DNA of 64,000 bases from Rhodoplanes sp. Z2-YC6860. Its GTDB lineage: Bacteria; Pseudomonadota; Alphaproteobacteria; Rhizobiales; Xanthobacteraceae. Shown here piece by piece: positions 16,356-51,728 of this stretch. Position numbers and translations under genes: made by a program. Position 1 is the first letter of the stretch. Each line of letters begins with the position of its first letter. Location of the stretch: the NCBI RefSeq assembly GCF_001579845.1, contig NZ_CP007440.1:3308029-3372028 (forward strand), written 5' to 3'. The notes beneath the pieces were generated by a model. The model was not told where the DNA came from and made no database searches. It saw nothing but the letters and a program-made list of their open reading frames with translations.

Positions 16356-17342
16356 TCATTGCTTGTTGAGCAGATCGAGCACGCCCTGCTTTAAAGCCTC
16401 GCGTTCGGTTTTCGGGGCTTCGACGCCCATCGCCTGCAACTCGTTCAGCGAGGCCTGAGAGGCCAATGGAGCGATGTGCACGGCTTCGCGAAAATCGGCG
16501 ATGGCATGTTCGCGGTCGCCTTTCATGCGGTAAGCGACGCCGCGGCTATGGTGCAACTCGACCATCTTATAGGGCGTCAGCCGGATCGCCTCGGTGTAGT
16601 CGGCAATGGCGAGATCGAACTCGCCTTTGTCCCGATAGGAATTGCCGCGCGCCTCGAAGACGACGGACGAGGCCTGATCGCGGCGGATCAATTCGCTGTA
16701 GTCTGCAATAGCAAGATCGTGCTCACCCTTGCGCTGATAGACCTCTGCACGCCTCAGATACCCATACCAATACGTTGGTGCCAGGCGGATTTCCTCGCTC
16801 AGATCGGCGATCGCGCGATCATTGTCGCCTTCGTTGAAATAGAGAATGCCGCGGTAGAGGTAAGTATCCGCCATGTCCGGCTTGAGCCGGATGGCTTCCT
16901 CGAAGTCGGCCATCGCGTGCGCCCGGTCGCCGGCCAGATGGTGGCTGAAGCCGCGCATGCTGAAATGGAGAGCGTTCTTCGGCTCGATCCGTATCGCCGC
17001 ATCGAAGTCGGCGGTCGAGTCGTCAAATCGGGACATCTGCTGGTACAGCCCGGCGCGTTTGTAATAGGCGTAGGCGTCGCCCGGCGCGATCCGGATCGCT
17101 TCGGCAAGGTCCGCCAACGCTGCGTCGACATCGCCGTTATCGGCCCGGGCGACGCCGCGCTCGGTCAGGGCGTAGGCGCGGGTTTCCGGCCGGATGGTTT
17201 GAGTCTCGGCGATGAGCGTGCAGGCGGCGATCCGGCGCTCGTAACCGGCGGTGTGGCAATCCTGCAAGTCCTGCTGGTCCACCACCTGGACCTTGAACGT
17301 GAAGGCCGTGAGCAGGGTGAGAAGCGCTTTGAGGGCGAGCAT
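16356..17342 (-). CDS. exported TPR-repeat protein
   Basis: A 328-residue protein with a short hydrophobic N terminus (LALKALLTLLTAFTF), probably a signal peptide or anchor, followed by two cysteines (DCHT and AACTL). From about residue 50 to 290 there are seven tetratricopeptide repeats with the canonical Ala/Gly/Tyr pattern, such as RGVAYRMKGDREHAIADFREAV and RGILYFNEGDNDRAIADLSEEI. TPR arrays form a curved scaffold for protein binding. The partner is not evident. It is divergent from an NTF2-like gene, so the 200-base gap between them probably holds two promoters. Confidence 0.8.
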   Translation of the reverse strand: MLALKALLTLLTAFTFKVQVVDQQDLQDCHTAGYERRIAACTLIAETQTIRPETRAYALTERGVARADNGDVDAALADLAEAIRIAPGDAYAYYKRAGLYQQMSRFDDSTADFDAAIRIEPKNALHFSMRGFSHHLAGDRAHAMADFEEAIRLKPDMADTYLYRGILYFNEGDNDRAIADLSEEIRLAPTYWYGYLRRAEVYQRKGEHDLAIADYSELIRRDQASSVVFEARGNSYRDKGEFDLAIADYTEAIRLTPYKMVELHHSRGVAYRMKGDREHAIADFREAVHIAPLASQASLNELQAMGVEAPKTEREALKQGVLDLLNKQ

Positions 17343-17545
17343 GGCGGCGCCTGTGCAGTGCGAAAAGGTGGCTGCTTCCTTTGTCGGATGTGAGCGGCGC
17401 GAGGTTCAAGGGGGCAGGTCTGGCGGAAAACGCCGGGCGCGCCTGTTCAGCCGCCCGCGAATATGTGCTCTGATCATGCATCCGCTTCTTGGCCTGCCAA
17501 TCGCGAGCCTCGGGTTGCTGACGAATGAGAAATGAGGAAAGAACC

Positions 17546-24525: not shown

Positions 24526-25149
24526 ATGCCTTTGAACCTGACGGCCATTAGCCGCGACAAACTCCACGAGAGCCGAGACTTGACTGCGAACCCAGCCACT
24601 TCGGACGAAGTCCTGATTGGACGGATCGCAAACGGGGACCGGCTTGCGATGCAGGTGCTCTTTGCCCGGCATCACGTGCGGGTATACCGGTTCGTCCTGC
24701 GGCTGGTTCGCGAAGAAGCCACCGCGGAGGACCTGATCAGCGAAGTGTTCCTCGATGTCTGGCGTCAGGCCGGGCGCTTCGAGGGACGGTCCCAGGTTTC
24801 GACCTGGCTGCTGGCCATCGCCCGCTTCAAGGCCTTGTCCGTTCTGCGCCGGAAACCGGAGCAGGAACTGGACGAGGAGATGGCGGAGGCGATCGAGGAC
24901 TCCTCGGACACCCCCGACGTCACGCTCGAGAAGAAGCAGAAGGCGGATGTGATCCGGCAATGCCTCGGCGGGCTTTCCGCGGATCACCGGGAGATCATCG
25001 ATCTGGTCTATTACCACGAGAAGTCCGTGGAAGAGGCGGCCGAGATCATTGGAATTCCGGAAGCAACCGTCAAAACGCGAATGTTCTACGCGCGTAAGAA
25101 GCTGGCAGAGCTGCTGAAAGCTCAGGGAATTGAAAGAGGTTGGCCATGA
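24526..25149 (+). CDS. ECF-type RNA polymerase sigma factor
   Basis: A 207-residue sigma-70 family protein with only regions 2 and 4. Region 2 covers about residues 35-100 (MQVLFARHHVRVYRFVLRLV, LISEVFLDVWRQAGRFEGRS, STWLLAIARFKAL). Region 4 covers 140-195 (LSADHREIIDLVYYHEKSVEEAAEIIGIPEATVKTRMFYARKKL) with a clear helix-turn-helix. A polar N-terminal extension of about 25 residues is unusual but seen in some subgroups. Its stop codon overlaps the start of the anti-sigma gene (ATGA), as is usual for a sigma/anti-sigma pair. The regulon and the signal are unknown. Confidence 0.92.
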   Translation: MPLNLTAISRDKLHESRDLTANPATSDEVLIGRIANGDRLAMQVLFARHHVRVYRFVLRLVREEATAEDLISEVFLDVWRQAGRFEGRSQVSTWLLAIARFKALSVLRRKPEQELDEEMAEAIEDSSDTPDVTLEKKQKADVIRQCLGGLSADHREIIDLVYYHEKSVEEAAEIIGIPEATVKTRMFYARKKLAELLKAQGIERGWP

Positions 25150-25823
25150 ACGCAGTCAAGAAAGAAGCGGGCGAGCTTCCGGAAGACATCGAACTCCTGC
25201 TGCCGTGGCATGCCGCGGGTACGCTGAGCCGCCGCGACGCAGCGCGCGTCGAGCAGGCGCTCGCCAACGACAACGAGCTGGCCGCCCGCTATGAGCTGGT
25301 GCGCGAGGAGCTGGGCGAAGCGATCCGGCTCAATGAAAACCTCGGTGCGCCGTCGGCGCGCGCCATGGAGGCGCTGTTCCAGAAGATCGACGCCGAGCCC
25401 AAGCGCGAGCCGAAGTCGACGTTTCGGCTCGGCGCCTGGCTGACCGAAATGTTCGCAAGCTTCTCGCCGCGCACGCTGGCCTACGGCGCGACGGCTGCTG
25501 CGCTCGCGATCGTGCTGCAGGCCGGCATCCTGGCTGGCGTGTTCGTGAAGCAGGGCACTGTGAGCGGCCCGGAGCTCGCCTCGGTGCGCGACACACAGCA
25601 GGCGGCTTACATCAACATCCGTTTCAAGCCCGAGGCGAGCGTTGCCGATATCACCCGCCTGCTCAGCGGCAACAACGCGGTGATCGTTACGAGTCCGTCC
25701 TCGACCGACGGCTTCTTTAAGGTGCGCGTCGGCGACAAGGCGATTTCCGATGCCGAGTTGAGCGCACTGACCAAGACGCTCCGTGACAATTCGGCGGTCA
25801 GCTTCGTAGCCAAGGCGCAGTAA
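25146..25823 (+). CDS. membrane anti-sigma factor with propeptide-like periplasmic domain
   Basis: A 225-residue protein. Residues 12-85 form the cytoplasmic sigma-binding part (IELLLPWHAAGTLSRRDAARVEQAL), with a His but no visible CxxC, so the zinc site of classical ZAS domains is absent. Residues 109-133 are one membrane helix. Residues 153-222 lie outside the inner membrane and read as a beta-alpha-beta-beta-alpha-beta unit, starting AYINIRFKPEASVADI and ending SAVSFVAK. This is the pattern of subtilisin propeptide (I9/fervidolysin-like) domains, and the next gene encodes a subtilase. ATG 25146 was chosen because it gives the ATGA overlap and has GAAAGAGG upstream. Confidence 0.82.
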   Translation: MNAVKKEAGELPEDIELLLPWHAAGTLSRRDAARVEQALANDNELAARYELVREELGEAIRLNENLGAPSARAMEALFQKIDAEPKREPKSTFRLGAWLTEMFASFSPRTLAYGATAAALAIVLQAGILAGVFVKQGTVSGPELASVRDTQQAAYINIRFKPEASVADITRLLSGNNAVIVTSPSSTDGFFKVRVGDKAISDAELSALTKTLRDNSAVSFVAKAQ

Positions 25824-25978
25824 CAGACGCCATCCCAGAACAATCAGGATGGCGCAAAACCTCCGGCCGGAAGGCCGCCTGATGCGAGCGGCCAAGGCCA
25901 GACACGGCGAGGCCACAAAGGCGTGGCACTGAGGCTCACGTTTCGCGGAAGGCGTTTTTTTGACGCGGAGGAGTTTTG

Positions 25979-27655
25979 ATGAGCATTTTGCATAAAGCTT
26001 TCAAGCCGATCGGCTTGCTGTCGGTTTCGATAGCCTCGGCCGTCGTCATTGTCGCCGCGGCCTCCTCAAGCTCGCAGGCGCAAGTTCGCGTGAACAGCAT
26101 GTCGATCGGCCCTCGTGGCGGCATGGGCGGCGGCGGCATGAGCATGGGCGGTTCGATGGGCGGCACGAGCTTCCGCGCCGAGCCGCGCTTCCAGCGCTTC
26201 GGAAATGATTCAGTGGTCGTGACCGGCGATGATGGCCGTCCGGGCCGTAGGCCGCCAGGCAAGCGCCCGCCGCGGCACATTGTTGGGCCGGTCATCGGCA
26301 CTGGCCTTGCCACCGTCAGTCCGGGGCCTGCCGGGGCTGGCCCTCGACGACCGCCGGTCGGCAGCATCTATCTGCCGCCGCCGAACGAACTGCGCTACGT
26401 CAAGGACGAAGTGCTGCTTGAATTCGCCGGCAGGGTCTCGCCGCAAGTGAGCAATGCGGTCGCGCTGCGCAATCGTTTGACCCGGGTCGAGTCGGTCTAT
26501 CTGCCGCTGACCAACACCACGATGTTCCGTTGGAAGATTCCCGACGGCCGTTCTGTCCCGACGGTGCTCAACCAGCTCGGCCGCGAGCGCGGCATCGCCT
26601 TCCGGCAACCGAATTTCATCTACGTCACCGTGCAATCACAAAGCGGAGAGGCCGCCGAAGCCAAACCGGAGGTCAAATCCGAAGCGCAGCCGGAGCCGGC
26701 CGCAGGCATGACGCTGCAAGCAGCGCCTGAGGCCGCGCCGGAGCCGAAACCCGCCGCGGCGGCGGCAGCCACGCTGCCGCAGGCCGCAGGCGATCCGGCC
26801 CAATACGCGATCCGCAAGCTCCACCTGGGCGAGGCGCACAATCTCGCCAATGGCGACAAGGTCCTGGTGGCGGTGATCGATTCCGGGGTCGACCTCGGCC
26901 ATCCCGAATTGCAGGGCGCGGTGGCGGGCTCGTTCGACGCTTTGGAGAAGCCCGAGAAGCCTCACACCCACGGCACTGCGATCGCTGGCGCAATCGTCGC
27001 TCATGCCCGTCTGATGGGCGCGGCGCCCGCCGCGCGAATCCTGGCGATCCGCGCGTTCGGCACCACCGGCGCCGGCAGCGACGCCACCACCATGGCGATC
27101 ATCAAGGGCCTGAAATACGCCACCGACCAGAAGGCGCGTGTGATCAACATGAGCTTCGCCGGCCCGACCGATCCGGGGCTCGGCCGGCATCTCGCTGCCG
27201 TGAAGGCCAACGGCGCGGTGCTGGTCGCGGCCGCCGGCAATTTCGGTCCGAAGTCGGGACCGCAATATCCGGCCGCTGATCCGAACGTGATCGCCGTGTC
27301 GGCGACCGACACCAACGACCAGATTTTCAAGGCCTCGAACATCGGTCCGCACATCGCGGTCACGGCGCCCGGCGTCGACATCCTGCTGCCTGCGCCTGAC
27401 AACGATTACCAGCTCACTTCGGGCACGTCGTTCTCGGCGGCTTACGTGAGCGGCGTCGCGGCGCTGATCCTGCAGCGGGCGCCCGAGCTCAAGCCCGACG
27501 GCGTGCGCAAGATATTGGAGCAGACCGCGAAGGATCTGGGCCCCAAGGGCAAGGATCCGGAATATGGCGCGGGCCTGGTCGATGCCTATCAGGCCATCCT
27601 TGCGGTGCAGGCGAGCGGGCAGGGCGCGCCGCAGCCCAGGATGACGGCGCAATAG
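25979..27655 (+). CDS. exported subtilisin-like (S8) serine protease
   Basis: A 558-residue protease. GGAGGAG precedes ATG 25979. The order is: signal peptide (10-34), a Gly/Met-rich segment (40-65), a Pro/Arg-rich linker (85-135), a propeptide-like domain (139-217: YVKDEVLLEFAGRVS to FRQPNFIYV), an Ala/Glu/Pro linker (220-275) and the S8 catalytic domain with D301 in VIDSGVDLGHPE, H331 in HGTAIAG and S484 in SGTSFSAAYVSG. All three catalytic residues are intact. It lies 155 bases after the anti-sigma gene, on the same strand, and ends before a good terminator. It is probably periplasmic or secreted, with a role linked to the sigma/anti-sigma pair. Confidence 0.9.
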   Translation: MSILHKAFKPIGLLSVSIASAVVIVAAASSSSQAQVRVNSMSIGPRGGMGGGGMSMGGSMGGTSFRAEPRFQRFGNDSVVVTGDDGRPGRRPPGKRPPRHIVGPVIGTGLATVSPGPAGAGPRRPPVGSIYLPPPNELRYVKDEVLLEFAGRVSPQVSNAVALRNRLTRVESVYLPLTNTTMFRWKIPDGRSVPTVLNQLGRERGIAFRQPNFIYVTVQSQSGEAAEAKPEVKSEAQPEPAAGMTLQAAPEAAPEPKPAAAAAATLPQAAGDPAQYAIRKLHLGEAHNLANGDKVLVAVIDSGVDLGHPELQGAVAGSFDALEKPEKPHTHGTAIAGAIVAHARLMGAAPAARILAIRAFGTTGAGSDATTMAIIKGLKYATDQKARVINMSFAGPTDPGLGRHLAAVKANGAVLVAAAGNFGPKSGPQYPAADPNVIAVSATDTNDQIFKASNIGPHIAVTAPGVDILLPAPDNDYQLTSGTSFSAAYVSGVAALILQRAPELKPDGVRKILEQTAKDLGPKGKDPEYGAGLVDAYQAILAVQASGQGAPQPRMTAQ

Positions 27656-27711: not shown

Positions 27712-27849
27712 CTGCGATGCAACCGCCATTGTGACTTTTCGCACTCCCCGCGCGGTGCAGCGGAATTGCGCTGAACCTTTGTCCCGCGGTCCCGACCAAT
27801 GGCCATGAGGACCGTTCCGGTCCACCAGAGATACCCAAGGGAGAGTGTC

Positions 27850-28119
27850 ATGAATTTGAAGTCGAAGATTGCCGCGGGCCTTGCTGTTGTGGCGCTCGCC
27901 GCGAGCCTCACGGTTCCGACCAGCGCCGCGAATGCGGGCGGCCATCATGGCTGGGGCATTGCCGGTGCGGTGATCGGCGGCGCCATCGTCGCCGGTGCGG
28001 TTGCCAACGCTTACGCCGAACCGGTCTACGTCGATGGCTATCGCCGCTGCCGCTTCGAGCGCCAGTACAACTCCTACGGCGACTACGTCGGAACCGCGAA
28101 GGTCTGCCGTTACTACTGA
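27850..28119 (+). CDS. small exported glycine-zipper protein
   Basis: An 89-residue protein starting at ATG 27850 with GGGAGAG nearby. A signal peptide (LAVVALAASLTVPTSAANA) is followed by GGHHGWGIAGAVIGGAIVAGAVANAYA, a small-residue stretch with GxxxG spacing as in glycine-zipper membrane proteins. The end (CRFERQYNSYGDYVGTAKVCRYY) is rich in Tyr and Arg with two Cys that may form a disulfide. It resembles the small envelope proteins that are abundant in Hyphomicrobiales. It stands alone between two terminators. Confidence 0.75.
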   Translation: MNLKSKIAAGLAVVALAASLTVPTSAANAGGHHGWGIAGAVIGGAIVAGAVANAYAEPVYVDGYRRCRFERQYNSYGDYVGTAKVCRYY

Positions 28120-28396: not shown

Positions 28397-29149
28397 ATGG
28401 CCGAATGCATCCTCGAGACCGAGGGGCTGACCAAGGAGTTTGCCGGTTTCGTCGCTGTCAACGGCGTCAATCTGCGCGTGGAGCGCGGTTCGGTGCACGC
28501 GTTGATCGGCCCGAATGGCGCCGGCAAGACCACTTGCTTCAATCTGCTCACCAAATTCCTGCAGCCCACACGCGGGCGTATCGTCTACAAAGGCAACGAC
28601 ATCACCGCGATGCAGCCGGCCGACGTCGCGCGTCTCGGCATGGTGCGCTCGTTCCAGATATCGGCGGTGTTCCCGCATCTCACGGTGCTGGAGAATGTCC
28701 GCATTGCGCTGCAGCGCGAGCGTGGCGGCTCATTCGACTTCTGGCGTTCGCGCCGCGTGCTCAACCGTTATAACGAACGTGCGCTGTCTCTGATCAATGA
28801 CGTGGGTCTCACGGAGTTCGCCGGCATTGCCGCGGTGGAGTTGCCGTATGGCCGAAAGCGCGCGCTCGAAATTGCGACCACGCTCGCGCTCGATCCGGAG
28901 ATGCTGCTGCTCGACGAGCCCACCGCCGGCATGGGTCATGAGGATATCGATCGGATCGCTGCGCTCATCAAACGCGTGGCCGCCGACCGCACCGTGCTGA
29001 TGGTCGAGCACAATCTGAGCGTCGTCGAGAACCTCTGCCACCGCATCACCGTGCTGACACGCGGTCGCGTGCTGGCCGAAGGCGACTACGCCACGGTGTC
29101 GAGCAATCCGGAGGTGCGCGAGGCGTATATGGGGACCGGCCATGCTTGA
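28397..29149 (+). CDS. livG: branched-chain amino-acid type ABC transporter ATPase (LivG)
   Basis: A 250-residue ABC ATPase. Walker A is GPNGAGKTT, the signature region is degenerate (VELPYGRKRALEIA), as usual for LivG, Walker B is MLLLDEPTAGMG and the switch His is in MVEHNLSVV. LivG and LivF form the ATP-driving pair of Liv-type importers for hydrophobic amino acids and, in this group of bacteria, many other small amides and acids. It is the first gene of a six- or seven-gene operon and overlaps livF by eight bases. Confidence 0.9.
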   Translation: MAECILETEGLTKEFAGFVAVNGVNLRVERGSVHALIGPNGAGKTTCFNLLTKFLQPTRGRIVYKGNDITAMQPADVARLGMVRSFQISAVFPHLTVLENVRIALQRERGGSFDFWRSRRVLNRYNERALSLINDVGLTEFAGIAAVELPYGRKRALEIATTLALDPEMLLLDEPTAGMGHEDIDRIAALIKRVAADRTVLMVEHNLSVVENLCHRITVLTRGRVLAEGDYATVSSNPEVREAYMGTGHA

Positions 29150-29858
29150 CGTGCGCGCGCCGCTCCTGTCGGTGAAAGACCTCAACGCCTGGTACGGCGA
29201 GTCTCATATTTTGCACGGCGTGTCGTTCGACGTGCATCAAGGCGAGGTCGTCACGCTGCTCGGAAGAAATGGCGCCGGCAAGACCACGACGATGAAATCG
29301 ATCATGGGCATCGTCGGCCAGCGCCGCGGCTCGGTGACGTTCGAAGGCCGCGAGCTCATTGGCTGCACGTCGAACGAGATCGCCCGCGCCGGCATCGCGC
29401 TCTGCCCTGAGGAGCGCGGCATCTTTGCGAGCCTGACGGTGCAGGAAAATCTGATGCTCCCGCCGCAAGTGCGGCAGGGCGGGCTCTCGCTCGACGCGAT
29501 CTTCGAATTGTTTCCCAATCTGAAAGAGCGGCTCGGTTCGAGCCAGGGCACCAAGCTCTCCGGCGGTGAGCAGCAGATGCTGGCGATCGGCCGTATCCTT
29601 CGCACCGGCGCGCGTCTACTTCTGCTCGATGAGCCGACCGAAGGGCTCGCGCCGGTCATCATCCAGCAGATCGGCAAGACGATCCGCACCTTGAAGCAGC
29701 AGGGCTTCACCATCCTGCTGGTCGAGCAGAACTTTCGCTTCGCGTCGACGGTGGCCGATCGCTACTATGTGATGGAGAACGGCCGCATGGTCGAAAATTT
29801 TGCGAGCTCGGAGCTCGAAGCCAATCTCGGCAAGCTGCACGAATATTTGGGAGTGTGA
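29142..29858 (+). CDS. livF: branched-chain amino-acid type ABC transporter ATPase (LivF)
   Basis: A 238-residue ABC ATPase with Walker A GRNGAGKTT, signature LSGGEQQMLAIGR, Walker B LLLLDEPTEGLAP and the switch His replaced by Gln in LVEQNFRF, as usual for LivF. FAVORED partner of LivG in the same transporter. The ATG lies inside the end of livG. The length is normal. The next gene, a binding protein, starts 41 bases later. Confidence 0.9.
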   Translation: MLDVRAPLLSVKDLNAWYGESHILHGVSFDVHQGEVVTLLGRNGAGKTTTMKSIMGIVGQRRGSVTFEGRELIGCTSNEIARAGIALCPEERGIFASLTVQENLMLPPQVRQGGLSLDAIFELFPNLKERLGSSQGTKLSGGEQQMLAIGRILRTGARLLLLDEPTEGLAPVIIQQIGKTIRTLKQQGFTILLVEQNFRFASTVADRYYVMENGRMVENFASSELEANLGKLHEYLGV

Positions 29859-29899
29859 CGAGAACAACGGAACGAAAATAAAGTTCGGGAGGATACTGG

Positions 29900-31111
29900 G
29901 TGAAGCGGATCATGATCTTGGCAGGGCTCGCCGCGATGCTTTCGGTGGGCGTCGCGCATGCGCAGCAGGTCAACGTCAAGGTCGGCGTGCTCACCGACAT
30001 GTCGAGCCTCTATGCCGACGTGACCGGCCCTGGCTCGCTGATTGCCGCCAGGATGGCGGCGGCCGATTTCATGAAGGATCATCCCAACGTCAAGGTCGAG
30101 GTGGTCGGCGGCGATCACCAGAACAAAGCCGATGTCGGCACCGGCCTGGCCAACCAATGGTTCGATTCCGACAAGGTCGACATGATCGTCGACGTGCCGA
30201 ATTCGGGCGTGGGCCTCGCCGTCAGCCAGGTCGCGAGCCAGAAGAACAAGGTGTTCATCGGCTCCGGCCCCGCAACGTCGGACCTTACGGGCGCCAAGTG
30301 CAACGCCAACACCGTGCATTGGACTTACGACACCTGGATGCTCGCCAACGGCACCGGCAAGGCCATCGTCAAGACCGGCGGCGACACCTGGTTCTTCCTC
30401 ACCGCTGACTATGCTTTCGGTCAGGCGCTCGAGCGTGACACGACGGAGGTGATCGAGAAGAACGGCGGCAAGGTGCTCGGCAGGGTCCGCCATCCGCTGA
30501 ACACCGCGGACTTCTCCTCGTTCCTGCTGCAGGCGCAGTCATCGAAGGCGAAAGTCATCGGCCTTGCCAATGCCGGCGGCGACACCATCAACTCGATCAA
30601 GCAGGCCGCCGAGTTCGGCGTCGTCAAGGGCGGTCAGAGCCTCGCAGGCCTCCTGGTGTTCGCGAGCGACGTGAATGCGCTCGGCCTCAACATCGCGCAA
30701 GGCCTGATCTTCACCGAGACCTGGTATTGGGATTTGAACGACAACAGCCGTGCCTGGACCAAACGCTGGCAGGGCGAGCGCAACGCGGCCAACAAGGTGC
30801 CGACCATGAACATGGCCGGCGTCTATGCCGGCACGCTCCACTATCTGAAGGCGGTGACGGCGCTGAAGAGCGCGGCCGACGGCAAGGCCGTGGTGGCCGA
30901 GATGAAAAAGCTTCCGACCGACGATCCGCTGTTCGGCAAGGGCAGCATCCGCGCCGACGGCCGCAAGCTCCACCCGGCCTATCTGTTCGAAGTCAAGAAA
31001 CCGTCGGAATCGAAGTACCCCGGCGACTTCTACAAGACCCGCGCCACCATTCCGGCCGAGGAGGCTTTCCGTCCGTTGAAGGATGGCGGGTGTCCGCTCG
31101 TGAGCGGCTAA
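29900..31111 (+). CDS. periplasmic binding protein of Liv-type transporter, copy 1
   Basis: A 403-residue exported protein beginning at GTG 29900, with GGGAGGAT about eight bases upstream. The signal peptide ends in VAHAQQ. The mature protein is a type I periplasmic binding protein with VGVLTDMSSLYADVTGPG, the central VDMIVDVPNSGVGLAVSQV strand and a hinge around FFLTADYAFGQALERDT. Such domains bind amino acids or related compounds between two lobes. It is followed by a very similar second copy of the same length, so the two come from a tandem duplication. Ligand unknown. Confidence 0.87.
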   Translation: MKRIMILAGLAAMLSVGVAHAQQVNVKVGVLTDMSSLYADVTGPGSLIAARMAAADFMKDHPNVKVEVVGGDHQNKADVGTGLANQWFDSDKVDMIVDVPNSGVGLAVSQVASQKNKVFIGSGPATSDLTGAKCNANTVHWTYDTWMLANGTGKAIVKTGGDTWFFLTADYAFGQALERDTTEVIEKNGGKVLGRVRHPLNTADFSSFLLQAQSSKAKVIGLANAGGDTINSIKQAAEFGVVKGGQSLAGLLVFASDVNALGLNIAQGLIFTETWYWDLNDNSRAWTKRWQGERNAANKVPTMNMAGVYAGTLHYLKAVTALKSAADGKAVVAEMKKLPTDDPLFGKGSIRADGRKLHPAYLFEVKKPSESKYPGDFYKTRATIPAEEAFRPLKDGGCPLVSG

Positions 31112-31158
31112 CAGGTGAACGGTTGAACGAACGATCAAGGAAAGAAGGAGAACGACGA

Positions 31159-32370
31159 ATGAAAAGACTCTTGAGCTTGGCGGCGATCGGCGCCGCGCTC
31201 GCCTGCGCCCCCGCGCAGGCGGAAGATATCAACGTCAAGATTGGCGTCCTGACGGACATGTCGAGCCTCTACGCCGACCTCGGCGGCCCGGGCTCGGTCG
31301 TGGCGGCGAAACTCGCGATCGCCGACTTCACCAAGGATCATCCCAACGTCAAGGTTGAGCTGATTTCCGGCGACCATCAGAACAAGGCCGATGTCGGCTC
31401 GAACCTCGCCAACCAGTGGTTCGATGTCGACAAGGTCGACATGATCATCGACACGCCGAATTCGGGCGTGGCGCTCGCGGTCAGCCAGATCGCGGCCAGC
31501 AAGAACAAGCTGTTCATCGGCTCCGGTCCTGCCGCTTCGGACCTCACTGGCTCGAAGTGCAACGCCAACACCATCCACTGGACCTACGACACCTGGATGC
31601 TCGCCAACGGCACCGGCAAGGCGATCGTCAAGACCGGCGGCGACACCTGGTTCTTCCTCACCGCCGACTACGCTTTCGGCCATGCACTCGAGCGCGACAC
31701 CGGCGAAGTGGTCGAGAAGAACGGCGGCAAGGTGCTGGGCAAGGTGCGCCATCCGCTGAACACGGCCGATTTTTCCTCGTTCCTGCTGCAGGCGCAGTCG
31801 TCGAAGGCCAAGGTGATCGGCCTCGCCAACGCCGGCGGCGACACCGTCAACTCGATCAAGCAGGCGGCCGAGTTCGGCATCGTCAAGGGCGGCCAGAAGC
31901 TCGCCGGCCTCCTTGTGTTCGCAAGCGACATCAACGCGCTCGGCCTGCAGACCGCGCAGGGCCTGACCTTCACCGAGACCTGGTACTGGGACATGAACGA
32001 TGCCAACCGCGCCTGGACCAAGCGTTGGCAGGAAGAGCGTAAGGCTGCCGGCAAGTTCCCGACCATGGTCCATGCCGGCGTCTATTCCGGCGTCCTGCAT
32101 TATCTGAAGGCGCGCGCTGCGCTTGGCGGCTCGCCGGACGGCAAGACTGTCACGGCGAAGATGAAGGAACTGAAGACCGACGATCCGCTGTTCGGCAAGG
32201 GCGAGATCCGCGTCGACGGCCGCAAGATCCACGACGCGTATCTGTTTGAGGTCAAGAAGCCGTCGGAATCGAAGCACCCCGGCGACTTCTACACGCTGAA
32301 GGCCACCATCCCGGCGGCGGAAGCCTTCCGTCCGCTCAAGGAAGGCGGCTGCCCGCTGGTAAGCGGCTAA
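31159..32370 (+). CDS. periplasmic binding protein of Liv-type transporter, copy 2
   Basis: A 403-residue exported protein from ATG 31159 with GAAGGAG upstream; its signal peptide ends in PAQAED. It aligns with the preceding protein without gaps by eye, and long stretches are identical, for example around TWFFLTADYAFG and HPLNTADFSSFLLQAQSSKAK. Differences sit in and near the signal peptide, in the early part (LGGPGSVVAAKLAIADF against VTGPGSLIAARMAAADF) and around residues 300-350. That pattern fits a diverged duplicate, possibly with a different ligand range. It is followed by a perfect palindrome and then the permease genes. Confidence 0.87.
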   Translation: MKRLLSLAAIGAALACAPAQAEDINVKIGVLTDMSSLYADLGGPGSVVAAKLAIADFTKDHPNVKVELISGDHQNKADVGSNLANQWFDVDKVDMIIDTPNSGVALAVSQIAASKNKLFIGSGPAASDLTGSKCNANTIHWTYDTWMLANGTGKAIVKTGGDTWFFLTADYAFGHALERDTGEVVEKNGGKVLGKVRHPLNTADFSSFLLQAQSSKAKVIGLANAGGDTVNSIKQAAEFGIVKGGQKLAGLLVFASDINALGLQTAQGLTFTETWYWDMNDANRAWTKRWQEERKAAGKFPTMVHAGVYSGVLHYLKARAALGGSPDGKTVTAKMKELKTDDPLFGKGEIRVDGRKIHDAYLFEVKKPSESKHPGDFYTLKATIPAAEAFRPLKEGGCPLVSG

Positions 32371-51414: not shown

Positions 51415-51469
51415 TCGTTGTCGTCGCATCGGCACACCCCGGCCGACACGCTCGCGCGTGACCATTGCT

Positions 51470-51648
51470 GGTGGCAGATCTCCTGGCTCACGGGTCGCTG
51501 TTTTCGCCCGCCTTCCCAGGAATTCACATTCCCAGTGGCATGATCGGGCGGAAACTCGCCGCTTACAGTTGCGGGGGCAGCCGCGGCATTGTGTGCAAAG
51601 CGCACACGCACCGCGTTCCCTTTTGATCCCTTGCGGGAACCACCGGGA
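51470..51648 (-). promoter_or_regulatory. cobalamin (adenosylcobalamin-type) riboswitch
   Basis: Read on the minus strand, the conserved blocks appear in order: CCGGTGGTTCCC, AAAAGGGAACGCGGTG, GCTGCCCCCGCAACTGTAAG with the following CGGCGAG, CCACTGG, TTCCTGGGAAGG and GAGCCAGGAGATCTGCC. These are the core of the class-I cobalamin riboswitch, including the B12 box and the closing GCCAGGAGA element. It precedes the TonB-dependent receptor. Binding of adenosylcobalamin is expected to lower expression. No second riboswitch is seen in the window. Confidence 0.95.
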
Positions 51649-51728
51649 GCAAACCTCGCATCAGAACGCGGATCGCGTCAACCCGCTTTTGCTCGCCTGC
51701 GCTATTCGCCGCGCCAACTGTCGTGCCG

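Follow-up and report, generated by a model that had tools for sequence, protein, structure and literature searches.

The DNA analyzed here (the window, 64,000 nucleotides of Rhodoplanes sp. Z2-YC6860, contig NZ_CP007440.1, positions 3,308,029 to 3,372,028) carries, at window positions 24526-27655 and on the forward strand, the genes of an extracytoplasmic function (ECF) sigma factor, an anti-sigma factor, and a subtilase of the S8 family, in this order (Table 1). Such a unit had been proposed in a first-pass annotation of the sequence, and it is borne out by profile matches and gene order. Our subject is this unit and, in particular, the resemblance between the C-terminal domain (C-domain) of the anti-sigma factor and the propeptide of the neighboring protease.

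The sigma factor also corresponds to the NCBIfam model PRK12515 (332.3 bits, cut-off 236) and to the NCBIfam model sigma70-ECF (110.6). The ATG codon of the anti-sigma gene (25146) overlaps the stop codon of the sigma gene. Judged from its sequence by eye, the anti-sigma factor would have a cytoplasmic N-domain, one transmembrane (TM) helix, and a periplasmic C-domain. Its N-domain matches zf-HC2 below threshold (18.2 bits, cut-off 22.2), as does the protein for the NCBIfam anti-sigma models, and the gene pairing suggests that it binds and inhibits the cognate sigma factor. No convincing paralogue was found in its own genome (8.19 Mb, one contig; next match E 0.325), which contains three S8 matches. 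In the subtilase, a signal-peptide-like start is followed by a Gly/Pro-rich stretch and then by the propeptide and the catalytic domain, and by eye the sequence appears to be that of an exported protein. The catalytic triad, previously described as intact, is D302/H332/S485; all 62 proteases in the alignment, the window protein among them, have it.

The gene order recurs in Hyphomicrobiales, where a survey had been suggested, and beyond, as supported by several sets of loci (designated by L numbers). The near set comprises 80 named loci, the best 80 of 266 that a single motif retrieved. A sigma match is present in 76 of them, and an intact S8 gene lies downstream on the same strand in 61; the S8 gene is cut by the contig end after its start in L034 and L076, and the contig ends at L066 and L096. 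Searches made with the anti-sigma factor alone, counting its own genome each time, found it in 32 of 61 relatives, in at least 9 of 289 genomes of the class, and in at least 31 of 398 genomes of a phylum sample, the last two figures being lower bounds as candidates were partly scored. The 26 distant loci obtained in this way (L134-L141, L152-L169) belong to 13 families and are not independent, seven being from one family; three further weak matches of the phylum search gave no locus. An S8 gene is found within the 1.5-kb flanks in 25 of the 26, representing 12 of the 13 families: downstream on the same strand in 22, upstream in two (L152, L153), and on the opposite strand in one (L169). Only L168 has none within these flanks. 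Ten additional loci of the same family (L142-L151) all show S8, as do 24 of the 29 loci L005-L033, a set that shares some genomes with the near set and in which the anti-sigma gene of L020 and L032 is only partly covered. In a plasmid collection, one more anti-sigma relative was found, on plasmid pRX1 of Methylocapsa polymorpha (L213), with the S8 gene upstream of the sigma gene. Besides, a similar protein, apparently of a surface type by eye, is encoded just upstream of the sigma gene in L138-L141. At L053 (6725-7237), S8 is reduced to a signal peptide and a propeptide, with no catalytic domain found, and may be a free propeptide or a decaying gene.

The resemblance between the two segments was first read from the sequence, as a beta-alpha-beta-beta-alpha-beta unit at residues 153-222 of the anti-sigma factor and the same architecture at residues 139-217 of the subtilase. 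AlphaFold models, built from alignments of 61 (anti-sigma domain) and 47 (protease) sequences from the window and related loci, reproduce both. In the anti-sigma C-domain, strands (E) and helices (H) follow one another as E-H-E-E-H-E at residues 156-226 (E11-17 H23-32 E35-39 E48-52 H59-70 E75-81, domain numbering), with a mean predicted local distance difference test score (pLDDT) of 84.6 (76.5-84.6 over five models). In the model of the propeptide together with the catalytic domain, the order is the same at residues 141-218 (E10-20 H25-34 E38-45 E50-56 H63-70 E76-87). Hence the two segments have the same fold and not different ones, although this fold is generic. In Foldseek searches, no PDB structure matched the anti-sigma domain at E<=0.001; the ranking was headed by an ACT domain (3ibw) and by ribosomal S6, ahead of propeptides, with pro-subtilisin E (3whi_A) at rank 18 and the prosubtilisin propeptide (3cnq_P) at rank 25 among the matches listed, each with probability 1.00. 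The protease model matched pro-subtilisin E first, and fervidolysin (1r6v) was among the matches listed. As ACT and S6 rank above propeptides, the fold is too common to prove anything on ancestry by itself.

Two unrelated neighbors with a ferredoxin-like fold, whose architecture is convergent, could therefore be envisaged. When PDB sequences were searched with the anti-sigma factor and with the profiles of the two domains, no credible match to a propeptide came up. The profiles of the near sets, aligned with hhalign, score 18.6 (P 0.007), for 20.6 and 18.4 in the reversed controls (11 columns each); 18.6 is also reached by one of 60 shuffles, and 91-residue stretches taken elsewhere in the protease, outside the propeptide region, reach up to 17.1. 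This is no better than the controls, and homology is thus not apparent from the close relatives alone. Likewise, PF22148 (Fervidolysin_NPro) matches 31 of 54 propeptides vs. one of 61 near anti-sigma domains, that one at E 0.18, and the window C-domain itself matches no Pfam family, PF22148 included. Deep profiles, in which the near sets are extended by 26 distant anti-sigma domains and by the propeptide regions of 23 of their neighbors, give a score of 33.9 (P 1.3e-5, probability 80%) over 66 colinear columns. The reversed controls give 12.2 and 10.6, the best of 80 shuffles 12.4, and a same-fold control of 25 ACT domains 13.9 over 11 columns, the ACT profile being shallower. With subsets, the scores are 29.3 for distant vs. 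distant, 24.9 for near anti-sigma domains vs. distant propeptides, and 19.8 for distant anti-sigma domains vs. near propeptides. Finally, PF22148 (cut-off 21) matches the C-terminus of full-length distant anti-sigma proteins, with 25.8 bits in L137, 24.7 in L163, 21.1 in L135 (just at the cut-off), and 20.6 in L136 (below it). Six of the ten distant full proteins scanned show no PF22148 match, and seven of the 26 distant members match at E<=1. The L163 protein additionally matches zf-HC2 (46.1 bits) and, by these two profiles, is a plain anti-sigma factor carrying a subtilase prodomain. Convergence was rejected as the main explanation on the deep-profile comparison, the ACT control, and the PF22148 matches of three distant anti-sigma factors of the same family, which reach or exceed the cut-off, and we consider it very improbable. 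A common ancestry of the anti-sigma C-domain and the propeptide is supported, via the distant relatives.

The unit is also associated with a promoter-like element. In 66 of 76 loci, for about 3 expected, the pattern GAACC-N15-17-CG[ACT]C is present between -200 and +30 relative to the sigma match; three of the closest relatives (L034-L036) are among the ten loci that miss it. The strict pattern occurs at two sites in the window vs. none in 100 shuffles. As the sigma open reading frame (ORF) includes the predicted promoter in its 5' end, the sigma factor probably begins with TTG 24580, past its own promoter, and not at 24526. An element was seen in just one of 45 assessable gaps between the anti-sigma and S8 genes, which argues for a protease probably co-transcribed from the sigma promoter. 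In the whole genome, there are ten exact TTGAACCT-N15-CGAC sites, for two sites of the backwards pattern; nine of the ten sit 21-70 bases ahead of a possible start codon, a figure for which no background was computed. The sigma gene is among those that follow, together with genes for three TPR-like proteins (16356-17342 of the window being one of them), for one protein resembling LemA, and for small proteins that look exported (names given by eye). The three TPR-like genes come after the sites L202, L203, and L208 and suggest a TPR-centred regulon. Downstream of the unit, homologues of the small protein 27850-28119 follow the S8 gene in L035, L036, L037, L039, and L040, and in L060 at 32% identity. 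A decay of the promoter accompanying protease loss was considered and not kept, despite a Fisher p of 0.043 (perfect sites in 2/6 vs. 20/25). The count missed two sites known from the promoter scan (L078, L091), five of the six protease-less promoters match 8 or 9 of 9 positions, and the same one-base change is found in the protease-bearing L069, so that it looks shared by descent.

Table 1. Features of the sigma/anti-sigma/subtilase unit and candidate members of its regulon (window coordinates).
Feature	Position	Strand	Basis or remark
ECF sigma factor	24526..25149	+	PF04542 58.7 bits, PF08281 49.7 bits, both over cut-off; regions 2 and 4 only
Predicted autoregulatory ECF promoter, TTGAACCT-N15-CGAC	24532..24558	+	Conserved element and strict pattern
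Anti-sigma factor	25146..25823	+	Cytoplasmic N-domain, one TM helix (about 25473-25550), periplasmic C-domain (by eye)
Anti-sigma C-terminal propeptide-like domain, ~75 residues	25596..25820	+	AlphaFold model; profile homology
S8 subtilase, signal-peptide-like start	25979..27655 (ATG 25979)	+	PF00082 162.8 bits; Foldseek best match pro-subtilisin E 3whi
Subtilase propeptide	26390..26629	+	AlphaFold block-mean pLDDT mostly 92-98; PF22148 20.5 bits vs. cut-off 21
Subtilase catalytic domain	26816..27595	+	Triad codons 26879 (D), 26969 (H), 27428 (S)
Second promoter-like element, GAACC-N15-CGAC	27773..27796	+	Looser pattern; strict pattern does not match
Small exported-looking protein, candidate regulon member	27850..28119	+	After element at 27773
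Promoter-like element upstream of TPR-like gene	17383..17409	-	Strict pattern
TPR-repeat-like protein (by eye), candidate regulon member	16356..17342	-	Follows element 17383..17409

Gene order and its recurrence, the fold and homology of the domain, the intact triad, and the conserved promoter-like element, all computed here, are the basis of the reading that we tentatively favor, giving it slightly less than an even chance: a self-amplifying ECF module in which the anti-sigma receptor derives from a fervidolysin-type propeptide and the co-encoded exported subtilase is its ligand. The periplasmic domain, descended from such a propeptide, would serve as the receptor on a membrane-anchored anti-sigma factor and would dock on the exported subtilase through its sheet face. 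The load or activity of the protease at the membrane would then decide whether the anti-sigma factor is held or cut. Cutting would release the sigma factor, which would transcribe its own operon, giving more protease, and also genes for small exported and TPR-like proteins. In this scheme, we infer the docking, the sign of the signal, the cleavage, and the regulon. A fuller version seems rather doubtful to us: the propeptide would have been captured by the anti-sigma factor, the cell would count its secreted protease by occupancy or cutting of the domain, the sigma factor would be freed without a DegS-type site-1 protease, and the whole would be a phylum-wide switch. To our knowledge, the ligands of most anti-sigma factors with one TM helix are unknown, and here the comparative evidence points to a candidate in the same gene cluster. 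If true, a domain used for folding and inhibition of a protease would have been reused as a signal receptor, which would offer a route to new sensors in other anti-sigma families.

Several observations weigh against the subtilase being the sole ligand. Among the near loci, five have S8 remnants only (L053, L079, L080, L081, L093) and ten have no adjacent S8 gene (L054, L063, L064, L065, L070, L071, L073, L075, L084, L087), L073 showing one weak 38-residue S8 match (E 0.005). Some of these loci have other particularities: L054 has a truncated sigma gene and L080 a split one; none was found at L063, which is a second copy next to L038 within a single assembly; and the contig of L087 starts just before the anti-sigma gene. 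At L022, L023, and L029, no S8 gene lies within several kilobases, wider flanks included. Searchable genomes were available for 14 of the 15 protease-lacking loci (not L084), some of them incomplete metagenome-assembled genomes; seven of the 14 contain no similar S8 gene anywhere at E<=1e-20, in a search that did recover both protease-bearing controls. Divided by that of the N-domain, the divergence of the C-domain amounts to 1.79 in six protease-less Bradyrhizobium and to 1.80 in a protease-bearing set of 27 loci (L088 and 26 named Bradyrhizobium); thus, constraint on the C-domain is not relaxed in the former. In subtilisin propeptides, the tail enters the active site and the sheet face packs on the enzyme. 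The near anti-sigma domain stops 4-7 residues past the conserved F77 (5 residues in 50 of 61) and lacks the Gln-Pro-Asn motif that ends the propeptides (Asn in 54/54), and at one beta-1 position, 57 of 61 anti-sigma factors have Arg where 52 of 54 propeptides have Glu. Finally, at E<=0.01 the anti-sigma profile matched nothing in Paracoccus or in Methylorubrum, nor did it match the anti-sigma factor of Sinorhizobium meliloti pSymA. An S8 gene (own profile) is divergent from an ECF sigma gene on pSymA and on a Paracoccus plasmid, and lies near one, less closely, in Methylorubrum. From the S. meliloti and Paracoccus cases, linkage of S8 to ECF sigma genes extends more widely than the propeptide-bearing anti-sigma factor.

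Part of these data would fit a former propeptide copy that now senses another envelope protein, a peptide, or a small molecule, the protease linkage being ancestral and the protease dispensable. Such a receptor would account for protease-less loci that keep sigma factor, anti-sigma factor, and promoter element under unchanged constraint, and for the beta-1 charge change and the lost end motif; moreover, the first Foldseek match of the domain is an ACT domain, a ligand-binding type. We nevertheless hold it to be unlikely, in view of the S8 gene kept in all distant loci except one and of the remnants left by at least five losses in the near family. Decayed protease pieces remain in four of the six protease-less Bradyrhizobium, so these losses look recent and may be too recent to show relaxation. 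The first-pass annotation had named a domain maintained without the protease as an argument against the link; this situation exists in part, with 15 of the 80 near loci lacking an intact adjacent S8 gene, but several of the losses appear to be recent. Elsewhere, with few sequences, the divergence ratio is 0.98 in three protease-less loci vs. 1.91 in their three protease-bearing neighbors, and 2.84 in a clade of five where no S8 was seen. Over 60 loci, once sigma and N-domain distances are removed, C-domain and propeptide distances have a partial r of 0.45 (0.13 for the N-domain); the C-domain/sigma value is also 0.45, and that for C-domain and catalytic domain is 0.33 vs. 0.27, all given without significance test. 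This is a weak hint that C-domain and propeptide co-evolve.

Elsewhere in the window, a cobalamin riboswitch (RF00174, 125.6 bits) is found at 51456-51659 on the reverse strand. The stretch 28397-32370 contains two ABC-ATPase-like ORFs and then two consecutive, very similar ORFs for binding proteins of the branched-chain amino acid type (by eye), one at 29900-31111 and one ending at 32370.

Among systems already described, the nearest is that of RpoE6, EcfR6, and SMa0142 in S. meliloti, where an ECF sigma factor, an anti-sigma factor with one TM helix, and a serine protease gene are also neighbors. Overexpression of RpoE6 (ECF26) activates the nearby divergent gene SMa0142 (PMC6180224, excerpt), which is probably the S8 gene of pSymA. 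By analogy, the subtilase could be mainly an output of the sigma factor, with the anti-sigma domain, tethered to the membrane, shielding the envelope from the protease as an inhibitor or an aid to folding, and any effect on the sigma factor being secondary. The probable co-transcription of the protease agrees with this. However, nothing requires an inhibitor to form part of an anti-sigma factor as its C-domain, the end motif of the propeptide is missing in the near family, and the domain persists after protease loss; we regard this explanation as quite unlikely. The two systems also differ: the protease gene is divergent in S. meliloti and downstream on the same strand in the window, the RpoE6 sigma factor is 27% identical to the window one, and the conserved GAACC/CGAC departs from the ECF26 promoter GGAATA/GT (PMC6180224, excerpt). 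By eye, no prodomain profile having been run, the S. meliloti anti-sigma C-domain seems unlike a propeptide.

Among the titles and abstract openings listed for the literature matches, we met no propeptide-like anti-sigma domain, which may nonetheless have been described earlier. In the RseA/DegS/RseP system of Escherichia coli sigma-E, removal of the periplasmic part of an anti-sigma factor with one TM helix frees the ECF sigma factor (PMC8103513, excerpt). RseA and the window protein have this topology in common, but the first cut of RseA is made by an inner-membrane PDZ protease, whereas the window cluster encodes a subtilase. Lysozyme is not known to be co-encoded with RsiV, the anti-sigma factor of Bacillus subtilis sigma-V. 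There, the signal is the enzyme itself, bound directly by RsiV (PMC5014341, excerpt); the enzyme-as-ligand principle resembles the one proposed here, with the difference that the window cluster encodes the candidate enzyme. In Plasmodium, SUB1-ProM is a propeptide homologue encoded beside subtilase genes that inhibits subtilases in trans (PMC6993865), a precedent in favor of the proposed reading; it is a stand-alone inhibitor, with no transcription link mentioned in the excerpt of that source, whereas the window domain is part of an anti-sigma factor. ECF54 shares with the window a neighborhood containing subtilase genes, but it has no anti-sigma factor and the proposed target of proteolysis is the sigma factor (PMC8999054, excerpt). 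We file the module of the window as a variant of ECF/anti-sigma systems.

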